From Dyadobacter sp. (GTDB lineage: Bacteria > Bacteroidota > Bacteroidia > Cytophagales > Spirosomataceae): DNA of 64,000 nt. Numbering within the stretch: the first letter of the stretch is position 1; each line of letters starts with the position of its first letter. The notes under the pieces are model-generated. The model did no database searches, was not told the origin of the DNA, and saw only the letters and a list, made by a program, of their open reading frames with translations. Positions 26,983 through 36,787 of this stretch are shown piece after piece. A program made the position numbers and the translations under genes. The DNA lies in contig NZ_JAGIAS010000001.1 of assembly GCF_017744695.1 (NCBI RefSeq), forward strand, positions 1,145,013-1,209,012, in the 5' to 3' direction.

Positions 26983-26987
26983 CCTCA

Positions 26988-27066
26988 ACTTTAGGGGTGT
27001 CCCGACATGCGGACTGAGATCATACCCTTTGAACCTGATGCAGCTAGTACTGCCGAAGGGAAAAGC
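26988..27066 (+). ncRNA. TPP riboswitch (thi box) controlling the thiamine operon
   Basis: The conserved thi-box blocks are present in order: 'aggggtg', 'ctgagat', 'acccttt', 'gaacctgat' and 'gaaggga'. The closing P1 helix can form between the bases around 26989-26992 and 27062-27065. It senses thiamine pyrophosphate and lies 84 bases upstream of thiS, with a terminator-like hairpin directly after it. Confidence 0.96.
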
Positions 27067-27067
27067 A

Positions 27068-27099
27068 GGAGTTACTGTGCACGTAGCTCCGTCTATTCT
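27068..27099 (+). terminator. Candidate riboswitch expression-platform terminator
   Basis: An 8-bp stem (27068-27075 with 27083-27090, one G-U) with a 7-base loop is followed by a U-rich stretch, directly downstream of the TPP aptamer. It would terminate transcription when ligand is bound; the antiterminator pairing was not worked out. Confidence 0.5.
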
Positions 27100-29274: not shown

Positions 29275-29275
<1 letters not shown>

Positions 29276-30753
29276 TGAAGGAATTGATCGTCATAACCCA
29301 CCCCAAAATGTTGCCCGGAGAAGCTGGTATGATCAACCAGCTTTTCACACACGGGCTCATGCGCCTGCACGTGCGCAAACCTGAGGCGAGCGAGGCTCAG
29401 TTCCGCGCATTACTCGAAGGCATCCATCCGCAGTTCCGCGGGCGCATTGCTTTGCATCAGTATCATGCACTAGCGAAGGATTTCGGCATTACCGGGCTGC
29501 ATTTTACGGAAAGTAACAGGTTGGCACAGTCGGAGGAGACATTCGAAGAATTGAAAAACAATGGCTTCATAATCAGCACTTCCCTGCATGATCCGGCTGA
29601 TCTTGAAACGCTTTCGCATGGCGTTGCTTATGCTTTTCTCGGGCCGGTGTTTGATAGTATTTCAAAGGAAGGATACCGGTCAAAGCTGCCTGATAATTTC
29701 AGATTAGAGAAATATGGCTTTCCAAACAGCGTAATTGCATTAGGCGGCATTCATGCAGAAAACTTGAAATCTGCATTAGAAATGGGCTTCGATGGTGCAG
29801 CAGTACTGGGCAGCATCTGGCAGAATCCAGACAATGCAATTGCCCAATTTGAGCTCCTCAAATCATTGCAAACATCTCCTTCTCATCCTGCATTCCAGCA
29901 AACATCCAGCATCCCCGGGTTAAAACCCGGGGCAAGGGATTTGGCATCAGATGATGAATTTTTATCATTGCAATCATTTCCTTCTCATCCTGCATTCCAG
30001 CAGACATCCAGCATCCCCGGGTTAAAACCCGGGGCAAGGGATTCTAAAATTGATCTCAATGAAAAAGCAATCCATTGCCCGCGGTTTCAACCGCGGGATC
30101 CAGAGCTAGGGATTGATGAAATAGCCGCTGTTGTAGACAAATTGCATTTCATCTCCAATGAAACAAGCAACATGTCCCATATCGACAGCATTCGCCTTGC
30201 CCTGGAAGCTGGGTGCCGATGGATTCAGTTGCGGGTTAAGAATCGGCCGGAGCAAGAGTTGCTGCCCATTGCCCGGGAGGCAACCCGGCTGTGCGATAGT
30301 TATGGAGCCAAACTGATTATCAATGATTTCCCGCGCATTGCCCTGGCCGTTGAGGCCTACGGGGTGCACCTCGGCCTCGCGGATATGCCTGTACCCGATG
30401 CACGTGCGCTCGTGGGTAAAAAAATGATCATCGGCGGCACGGCTAATACCTGGGAGGATATTGTGCGGCGGATTGATGAAGGGGCAGATTACATTGGCCT
30501 CGGGCCGTTCCGGTTTACCGCTACCAAGCAGAACCTCAGCCCAATTCTCGGCATCGAAGGCTACCGGCAGCTGATGAGACGAATGAAGGCAGCCGGCCAT
30601 TCGACCCCCATTATCGCGATCGGCGGCATTACAGCTGACGACATTGCGGCAATTCGCGCTACCGGCATTCACGGCGTGGCAATGTCAGGTGCACTGATCA
30701 CCGCCGCTGATCCGCAAAAAACATTTTACCAAATCCAACAAGCATTATGCTGA
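29275..30753 (+). CDS. thiE: Double thiamine-phosphate-synthase-like protein (TenI/ThiE-like plus ThiE), joined by a repeat-derived linker
   Basis: At 492 residues it is about twice the size of ThiE. Residues ~1-200 are a ThiE/TenI-like TIM barrel ('[11 protein letters not shown]', 'GLHFTE', '[17 protein letters not shown]', '[12 protein letters not shown]'). Residues ~290-492 are a second, more canonical ThiE ('RWIQLRVKN', '[26 protein letters not shown]', 'IIGGTANT', '[15 protein letters not shown]', '[12 protein letters not shown]'). ThiE couples HMP-PP with thiazole phosphate; TenI aromatises the thiazole. The ~90-residue linker is encoded by two 79-base direct repeats and a third palindrome and contains a duplicated peptide ending '[12 protein letters not shown]'. 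No frameshift is visible; the fusion stays in frame. It overlaps thiG by seven bases. Confidence 0.9.
29862..29940 (+). repeat. 79-base direct repeat inside thiE fusion, copy 1
   Basis: It matches 29964-30042 in 76 of 79 positions. It contains a 20-base near-perfect palindrome (29913-29932: nine-base arms around 'aa') typical of intergenic REP-like elements, here lying in the coding frame. Confidence 0.9.
29964..30042 (+). repeat. 79-base direct repeat inside thiE fusion, copy 2
   Basis: The offset from copy 1 is 102 bases, exactly 34 codons, so the same peptide is encoded twice. The palindrome here is 30015-30034. Confidence 0.9.
30078..30097. repeat. Third palindrome in the thiE linker
   Basis: Nine-base arms flank 'tc', with the same geometry as the palindromes of the two direct repeats (9-2-9) but a different GC-rich arm (cccgcggtt). 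It suggests a related element of the same family. Confidence 0.75.
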
Positions 30754-35562: not shown

Positions 35563-35649
35563 AATTCAATGAATTTAGCTAAATTGATTGAGTAAATTCA
35601 ACGAATTTAGCTAAATTTGTTCAGCGAACGCAATCAATTTAGCTAAAAT
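35563..35649 (+). promoter_or_regulatory. Three palindromes at 32-base spacing upstream of the ATPase gene
   Basis: The 14-base palindrome AATTTAGCTAAATT occurs at 35572-35585 and 35604-35617, and as a one-base variant at 35636-35649. The three copies are spaced exactly 32 bases apart, about three helical turns. Flanking bases (aattca before the palindrome) are also partly repeated, so the 32-base unit is a degenerate tandem repeat. The last copy overlaps the ATG, suggesting an operator array that represses the following gene. Confidence 0.8.
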
Positions 35650-36787
35650 GGACTTCCCAAGACATATTCTCTCACAGATAGTCGATAAAACCGCTTCGAA
35701 CAAAGTGCTTATCGTTTATGGAGCACGTCGTGTCGGAAAGACGCACTTAATGAGGGCCGTCGAAGAACAATTTGCCGGCAAGTCACTATTTCTAAATGCG
35801 GAAGACCTTGATACAATCGCCCTACTGTCGGACAGACGAGTCGCAGCATTTCGTCGCTGGATCACGGATATCGACCTCCTCATCATTGACGAAGCACAGG
35901 TCGTGCCTGAAATAGGCAAATCGCTGAAATTGCTCATCGACTCGTTTCCCAAATTGACTATCCTGGCAAGCGGCTCATCGGCATTTGAGTTATCGAATAA
36001 AACCGGGGAACCTCTGGTAGGGCGCCAGGTTCGATTTCAGCTTTTTCCTATCGCCCAAATGGAGCTGTCGAAAGAAGAGAACTATCTCGTAACAAAACAA
36101 CAATTGGAAACCCGGCTTATTTATGGCAGTTATCCGGAGGTTTTGAAAAGCGAAGCTGCTGACGCCAAAACGGACTACCTGAAAGAGCTGGTCAGTGCTT
36201 ATCTGCTGAAAGATATTTTAATGTTTGAGCAGGTCCGCTACTCGCATAAAATGTTACAATTGCTGCAATTGGTTGCTTTTCAAATCGGGCAGGAGGTTTC
36301 GTATGATGAGCTTTCCAAAGCACTTCAAATCGACCGAAACACGGTTGAACGTTATCTGGATCTGTTCTCGAAAGTATTCATCATCACACGCATTGGCGGA
36401 TACAGTAAAAATCTTCGCAAGGAAGTAACAAAGTCATCCAAATGGTATTTTCTCGATAACGGGATACGAAATGCATTGATCAACAACTTCCTTCCCATGA
36501 ACCAGCGCACAGATACCGGCGCATTATGGGAAAATTACTTAGTTGCGGAAAGGCTTAAATACAATTCCTATACCCGAAAAACGCCCCTCACCCACTTTTG
36601 GCGCACATATGACCAACAGGAACTCGATTGGCTCGAAATCGCCGACGAGCAGTTAAGCGCCTATGAATTTAAATGGAAAGACACCAGGGTTAAGTTTCCA
36701 AAGGCATTTCGGGAAGCATATCCTGACGCCGCCATGCATTGGGTCAATCAGGGAAACTTCATGGATTTTGTGACAGGCGAAATATAA
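35648..36787 (+). CDS. AAA-type ATPase with DUF4143-like C-terminal domain
   Basis: This 379-residue protein has the Walker A 'GARRVGKT' (25-32), Walker B 'LLIIDEAQ' (77-84) and sensor-like 'LASGSSAFEL'. A winged-helix-like segment follows ('QEVSYDELSKALQIDRNTVERYLDLFSKVFI'), then a DUF4143-type nuclease-like C-terminal part ('TDTGALWENYLVAERL', 'YDQQELDWLEI', 'YEFKW'). These proteins are common, patchily distributed and of unproven function. The three palindromes at its start suggest autoregulation through the winged-helix part. Confidence 0.88.
   Translation: MDFPRHILSQIVDKTASNKVLIVYGARRVGKTHLMRAVEEQFAGKSLFLNAEDLDTIALLSDRRVAAFRRWITDIDLLIIDEAQVVPEIGKSLKLLIDSFPKLTILASGSSAFELSNKTGEPLVGRQVRFQLFPIAQMELSKEENYLVTKQQLETRLIYGSYPEVLKSEAADAKTDYLKELVSAYLLKDILMFEQVRYSHKMLQLLQLVAFQIGQEVSYDELSKALQIDRNTVERYLDLFSKVFIITRIGGYSKNLRKEVTKSSKWYFLDNGIRNALINNFLPMNQRTDTGALWENYLVAERLKYNSYTRKTPLTHFWRTYDQQELDWLEIADEQLSAYEFKWKDTRVKFPKAFREAYPDAAMHWVNQGNFMDFVTGEI

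Follow-up and report, generated by a model that had tools for sequence, protein, structure and literature searches.

The window analysed here, a stretch of 64,000 nucleotides of Dyadobacter sp. (contig NZ_JAGIAS010000001.1), carries at 35563..35649 an array of three core palindromes with a period of 32 bp and dyads approximately every 16 bp, and this array runs into the start of a forward-strand gene (35648..36787) encoding an AAA_14-DUF4143 ATPase of 379 aa (PADLOC PDC-S01). The sequence AATTTAGCTAAATT was found as an exact palindrome at 35572..35585 (core palindrome 1, dyad A) and at 35604..35617 (core palindrome 2, dyad A), and AATTTAGCTAAAAT at 35636..35649 (core palindrome 3) is a copy of it with one mismatch which takes in the first two bases of the ATG. 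The pattern search bore out the original prediction of a palindrome that occurs twice perfectly and once with one change, the start-to-start steps being exactly 32 and 32. The last copy had been said to include the start codon (35648-35650); this is true of its A and T, the G lying outside the copy. The further statement that the sites are on the same DNA face holds because 32 bp is about three helical turns. The inverted repeat exceeds 14 bases, 35566-35591 being a 26-bp palindrome with 13-nt arms that are 92% complementary. Compared to the first 32-bp unit the second is 81% and the third 63% identical. The inter-core stretch at 35586..35603 (dyad B) holds two inward-facing specificity boxes (TTGA ... 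TCAA); the second one, at 35618..35635 (dyad B), is degenerate in the genome of the window.

Allowing two mismatches, the array core has three matches in the 64 kb versus a mean of 0.37 in 100 dinucleotide shuffles, one of which also reaches three matches when the spacing is not yet counted. In the 7.83-Mb genome (17 contigs) the exact 14-mer AATTTAGCTAAATT is present at these two places only, and with one mismatch permitted the core was located at five places, three of which are this array. The half-site CTAAATTNGTTGA, again with one mismatch permitted, gave 26 genome matches (four within the array, the other 22 scattered) and its reversed control pattern 33; clustering of half-sites was observed at this locus only.

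The ATPase was matched by the Pfam profiles AAA_14 (PF13173, 83.6 bits, cut-off 27) and DUF4143 (PF13635, 131.9 bits, cut-off 28.1) and, across residues 1-375, by the PADLOC profile PDLC04789 (PDC-S01) at an E value of 1.8e-154, while it had no NCBIfam match above any cut-off. We take the family to be the one also designated COG1373. The nearest named relative is Dyadobacter jiangsuensis (96% protein identity). A Bac_DnaA Pfam match was also above its cut-off (31.5 bits, cut-off 23); elsewhere the DnaA-like similarity is weak, a phmmer search of the PDB at E<=1 returning four DnaA chains (best E 0.0066, weak) and one aldolase. Based on the predicted structure (mean predicted local distance difference test score, pLDDT, 89.5), residues 199-268 (36242..36451) would form a winged helix composed of helices 199-211, 219-226 and 230-242 and strands 246-251 and 264-268. 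Helix 230-242 is the third helix of this helix-helix-helix-strand-strand fold, and the codons for D229, R230 and N231 (36332..36340) stand at the start of this predicted recognition helix. Residues 290-366 (36515..36745) constitute the PD-(D/E)XK-like nuclease part of DUF4143, in which Y321 (codon 36608..36610) lies between two strands. Residue K342 is invariant, and D327 and E340 are present in at least 90% of 34 sequences; we take these three to be the PD-(D/E)XK motif residues. With strands predicted at 314-341, the part appears to place its conserved lysine and acidic residues on a central beta sheet, as in a nuclease of this type, catalysis being a prediction.

Homologues were gathered from related genomes, named contigs and a phylum-wide spread. 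Following removal of duplicates, truncated matches and loci with less than 200 bases upstream, 174 distinct proteins were kept, and the subfamily was defined by a profile score of at least 380 (134 members). An alternating half-unit scan from 24 to 41 bp gave 32 as the best period in 112 of the 134 members, mostly Bacteroidota, and 33 in a further 14; 123 were above the 99% level of 268 dinucleotide shuffles. Among 47 representatives sharing less than 60% identity, the period was 32 or 33 in 45, and 43 were above the 99% shuffle level. By plain autocorrelation of 120 members with less than 90% identity, lag 32 had a mean z of 2.35 and was the best lag in 60; it was the best lag in none of the control stretches from the same loci (0/47 coding, 0/38 far upstream). 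The letters of the palindrome differ between clades. The motif had been expected upstream of other homologous genes, and TTTAGCTAAA is indeed the core in the Dyadobacter orthologues; other homologues carry different palindromes in the same layout, including GGAATnnATTCC, GGATTnnAATCC, TTAGGCCTAA, CGGTTnnAACCG and others, with a period of 32 bp. The array is part of a widespread pattern and is no local oddity. A 32-bp array (score 8.8) precedes a plasmid homologue of Treponema saccharophilum (Spirochaetota, 40% identity), and a weak one (5.4, at 33 bp) the plasmid homologue of Bacteroides finegoldii. Counting these two plasmid homologues, five subfamily members reside on mobile DNA (L357, L358, L392, L393 and L394), and 32-bp arrays were present in L357, L392 and L394; the scores were 9.8 for the unverified phage contig L394, 8.3 (clear) for the viral contig L357 and 5.4 (weak) for the viral contig L358.

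Forty DUF4143 loci outside the subfamily were also scanned. Twenty exceeded the largest shuffle value of 6.21, one (L196, at 6.2) was level with it and 19 were below. The periods of the 20 were 22 bp (seven loci), 33 (four), 23 (two) and 19, 21, 32, 34, 41, 42 and 55 (one each); 22, 33 and 42 bp, accounting for 12 of the 20, correspond to two, three and four turns, the other eight having other periods. The 22-bp arrays are those of L034, L076, L092, L096, L097, L106 and L108, the 33-bp arrays those of L081, L031, L033 and L071, and the 42-bp array that of L083. By eye, L032, L077, L084, L088, L090 and L091 have one long interrupted palindrome before the start codon and no array. Within the subfamily, paired genes adjoin each other in opposite directions on contig C10 of G604 and contig C149 of G389.

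The repeated unit was analyzed as a half-site, defined as the 16 bases between successive dyads, in the 110 of the 134 members with an array at z>=7. A common frame was found, approximately nTAAATTTn followed by three to four variable bases and A n T n, in which the frequencies of A13, T15 and T7 are 0.94, 0.92 and 0.88 and positions 9-12 are variable; each half-site was turned to fit the common profile and the frame is thus partly fitted. The distance between boxes is approximately 11 bp at one dyad and 21 bp at the other, corresponding to one and two turns, so that they all lie on one face. Dyads occur every 16 bp, a spacing that is no separate evidence since a half-way dyad is automatic for a repeated palindrome. 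The boxes of other members read GTCA, GGA, CGG and others, the unit being a common chassis with a variable box.

The variable bases co-vary with residues of the ATPase. When mutual information was calculated for 379 protein columns and 16 DNA positions (6064 pairs), the highest values were those of base 11 with N231 and base 12 with D229; base 4 with Y321 came next, ahead of base 1 with D322. Disjoint pairs of relatives were compared in order to lessen the effect of common ancestry. With 54 such pairs, the best of 300, 308 and 312 columns were R230 for base 10 (p 1.6e-5), N231 for base 11 (7e-9) and D229 for base 12 (9e-5). When the set comprised 192 arrays, giving 96 disjoint pairs, 5042 associations were ranked and the top four were N231-11 (5e-9), R230-10 (2e-8), D229-12 (1e-6) and Y321-4 (2e-6); D322-1, though fourth by mutual information, did not stand out in the pair contrasts. 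In the 192 arrays, by tallies that count relatives, residue 231 occurs as K with G (51/51), H with G (8/8), N with T (73/73), glutamate with C (11/13) and aspartate with C (3/3), D229 with G (117/117), and residue 321 as Y with A (85/85) and K with C (25/26), K230 with G being looser (69/74). We read these pairings as chemically sensible, N231 going with T (A on the other strand) and D229 with G (C on the other strand). As to paralogues, an identical residue triplet was seen in 5 of 73 within-genome pairs compared to a mean of 2.8 in identity-matched between-genome pairs; no avoidance of shared sites was seen among them, and selection for private sites among the paralogues of one genome is unsupported, since sharing is not below the between-genome mean.

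Rules for bases 10, 11 and 12 were written from the tables of the 110 arrays and then applied to new members. These came from 117 new loci, the upper rows of the homologue listings taken in listed order with already sampled genomes and one row without upstream sequence excluded, which yielded 103 members; 15 frames were dropped, 12 of them as duplicates, 2 as too short and 1 for its low score. An array at z>=7 was present in 82. Bases 9-12 were excluded from the choice of half-site orientation, and a position was scored only if it had a majority base and a rule applied to it, rules being unavailable in 12, 25 and 1 of the 82 for residues 229, 230 and 231, respectively. The rules were correct for base 11 in 71/76, base 12 in 64/68 and base 10 in 46/54 cases; shuffling the residues among the members 2000 times gave on average 25.8, 31.2 and 27.7 correct calls and at most 39, 43 and 38, respectively. 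For the 62 arrays with a protein sharing no more than 65% identity with any training protein, the corresponding values were 51/56, 45/49 and 33/40. As a control on those 62 arrays, every protein column was tried as a single predictor. N231 was the best column for base 11 (51/57; next 38, median column 28), D229 for base 12 (49/58), and Y321 for both base 4 (52/57; next 47, commonest base 40) and base 5 (54/54; next 48, commonest base 46). When the base was instead taken over from the training protein closest in sequence, 28/47, 42/56 and 39/56 were correct for bases 10, 11 and 12. For L392, L394 and L357 on mobile DNA seven bases could be called, of which the rules predicted five correctly, the misses being at residues L231 and S229. 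The D229, R230, N231 and Y321 of the window predict G12, T10, T11 and A4, the bases in its half-site CTAAATTnnTTGA; this agreement is no test, because orthologues of the protein are in the training set.

Within the array, TAAATTTG at 35612..35619 (forward strand) was read from the sequence as a predicted promoter -7 element, TAnnTTTG, which we take to be the Bacteroidota consensus, and a TTG is found at 35588-35590, 21 bases before it. With a promoter-like element inside the array, RNA polymerase and an array-bound factor should compete. In 220 bases inspected per member, 65 of 85 TAnnTTTG matches fall at -40 to 0, compared to 6 of 27 on the reverse strand. As the array overlaps or adjoins the promoter, a bound factor most likely stops transcription of the gene itself.

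Taken together, the ATPase very probably reads its own array. The sites lie upstream of the gene whose product they appear to match in sequence, as expected of an autoregulatory operator, and with good confidence we regard the array as the private operator of the gene, bound and autorepressed by its own ATPase. For the outcome taken by itself, autorepression is the probable one. The most likely binder would be the winged-helix region of the ATPase, as the original prediction had supposed; co-variation, prediction at new loci and a period which follows the subfamily despite changes in sequence indicate that it was probably right. Co-variation supports binding strongly; repression, a tight one in the original prediction, and cooperativity are inferences. 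That prediction described the array at this gene; the pattern extends far wider, and a contribution of the nuclease part to the reading had not been foreseen. That residue 321 contacts base 4 is a somewhat less firm proposal, although still likely. In the mechanism that we propose, each protomer would take one 16-bp half-site, the start of the recognition helix (229-231) reading bases 12, 10 and 11 and residue 321, in a turn of the nuclease part, recognising base 4 of the AT-rich box. Protomers of alternating orientation would give dyads every 16 bp, a 32-bp repeat and a chain on one face of the DNA, presumably bound cooperatively, and occupancy would most likely shut off transcription of the gene, keeping a potentially harmful nuclease scarce.

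Several observations weigh against this reading, in addition to the partly fitted frame, the automatic half-way dyad and the counting of relatives mentioned above. No array at z>=7 was found in 21 of the 103 new members, the best period is neither 32 nor 33 in 8 of the 134, and a Desulfosarcina homologue (42% identity) has no array (z 4.1). For base 12 the lead of D229 over the next column (46) is only 3, and for base 10 R230 is second (41/57), behind L226 (43). For base 5 the pair contrasts do not rank Y321 near the top, and in these contrasts L95-11 (p 9e-6) and S17-4 (p 5e-5) indicate that an ancestry signal remains. Parts of the code are loose, S229 occurring with C in 38/47 and R230 with T in 23/35, and N229 and N230 are spread across several bases. 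TAnnTTTG is present in only 75 of the 134 members, and in the 61 strong arrays (z>=8) having one, the element nearest the start is inside the array in 34. It lies outside in the remaining 27, mostly no more than 30 bases downstream, and for those an activating position is therefore possible.

This last arrangement bears on whether the ATPase might bind the array mainly to activate transcription, to be kept there as an inactive lattice until infection releases it, or to find a landmark for its nuclease part. Further points in favour are that base 4 co-varies with a residue of the nuclease (321), and that the fold matches include the DNA-filament ATPases MuB and TnsC and the initiator-like Orc2. 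In the window, however, the array overlaps both the -7 element and the start codon, which is the usual layout for autorepression, and a role other than repression seems rather unlikely. A separate small repressor could instead bind the array, as RptR does at three TTTAGCTAA repeats at the promoter of an E. coli defence island; its minimal site, TAGCTA, is the core seen here, similarly repeated three times over a defence-gene promoter, according to the available part of PMC12255303. As described there, RptR is a small dedicated repressor with a nearly fixed site, and its three repeats are of 9 bp and lie 58 to 31 bases before the start codon, whereas here the spacing is 32 bp, the core differs across the subfamily, the boxes vary and the variable bases follow residues of an ATPase, making a separate repressor improbable. 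AT-rich upstream DNA readily yields palindromes, so that RNA hairpins, chance or low complexity could be proposed; neither dinucleotide shuffles nor control stretches show the period, a transcript starting at the predicted promoter would contain the last copy alone, and array bases follow protein residues, leaving such an origin scarcely credible.

The repeats might also belong to a mobile element or serve as the target for a nuclease of the homing type, considering the nuclease-like part and the homologues on plasmids, on an unverified phage contig and on viral contigs. The loci of the genus bear on this. In the window a CN-hydrolase gene lies upstream of the ATPase gene and TauE downstream. 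TauE was matched in each of the 48 genus genomes, and closely (at least 69% identity) in 45. Among 30 TauE loci, nine have the ATPase within 1.5 kb of flanking sequence, with two or more array cores in every case. In G022 and G014 the ATPase is located about 1.8 kb upstream of TauE, and G016 and G025 have C-terminal ATPase fragments alone, about 1.8 kb before TauE. Ten loci lack the ATPase, TauE being the gene after the CN-hydrolase. An exact half-site remains in four of these (L211, L213, L214 and L221), and L221 (approximately 1245-1330) keeps two array cores together with the opening codons of the gene, the rest being gone, which is a stage of gene loss. In the other six the best half-site has two to four mismatches, a level obtainable from AT-rich sequence; these represent either complete loss or a gene that was never present, and some could be true empty sites. 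The four exact half-sites, the remnant in L221 and the C-terminal fragments point to loss and not excision, and a pattern search of the window found no copy of the array beyond the far side of the gene. A mobile-element origin is therefore considered very improbable. The distribution suits an accessory gene lost more than once, with the array decaying afterwards.

An AraC-type regulator and a helix-turn-helix protein are also encoded nearby. None of the tested neighbours (CN-hydrolase, AraC-type, TauE, helix-turn-helix) is a defence gene, no dedicated defence search having been run; other neighbours, judged by eye, are thiamine and respiratory-chain-like genes. A thiamine pyrophosphate (TPP) riboswitch (Rfam RF00059, 68.4 bits) was located at 26983-27078 of the forward strand, ahead of an apparent thiamine gene cluster. 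An open reading frame of 492 aa at 29275-30753 (forward strand) has, by eye, two thiamine-phosphate-synthase-like halves, and the linker has a 21-residue peptide occurring twice.

The closest folds to the predicted model of residues 1-280 were SSO1545 (2fna) and PABY2304 (2qen), archaeal Walker-type ATPases, both with a Z score of 16.3, over 254 and 257 residues with root-mean-square deviations (rmsd) of 3.4 and 3.5, covering the AAA and winged-helix parts. They differ in having 18% identity, and the alignment ends near residue 280, before the nuclease part. Other matches were to plant NLR and CED-4 ATPases (Z up to 14.4), MuB (12.7), Orc2 (1w5t_A; 12.6, rmsd 4.2, 254 residues, with the AAA+ plus winged-helix fold) and TnsC (11.5). 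The STAND ATPases (CED-4, Apaf-1, plant NLR) are alike in fold (Z 12.1 to 14.4), and to our knowledge their winged helix is not a sequence-specific reader of DNA. We know of no nuclease domain in the archaeal Orc1-2. Like the protein studied here, Orc1-2 is an AAA+ ATPase with a winged helix, Orc/Cdc6 structures being among the fold matches, and the available part of PMC9738581 describes it as a regulator footprinted on its own promoter; its site there is one ANTTTC hexamer, in contrast to the 32-bp array of this gene. The available part of PMC12988326 ranks PDC-S01 as the fourth most common defence across prokaryotes, describes it as an ATPase with PD-(D/E)XK, the same family as here, and states that experimental validation is pending for most such candidates, PDC-S01 included. 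A phage-defence role of the present gene would rest on the PADLOC label and is left open. In the literature searched, which held few subscription papers, some sources in part, and no bioRxiv preprints, DUF4143 is scarcely named, and arrays, own-promoter binding and a specificity code are unmentioned for PDC-S01, DUF4143 or COG1373.

More tentatively, the arrays may be docking lattices, a regular chain of the ATPase-nuclease on its own promoter serving both as gene shut-off and as a safe inactive store. It is conceivable, if doubtful, that the four-position code is split between winged helix and nuclease part for this purpose; with the nuclease part reading the operator, it would be occupied as long as the chain is intact. 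Infection or DNA damage might then break the chain and free nuclease and promoter together, which we offer as a speculative possibility.

For the PDC-S01 family, which is large, the arrays are a first concrete molecular handle. Its members should bind DNA sequence-specifically, at sites predictable from four residues, and a specificity code that includes a residue of the nuclease domain would be unexpected.
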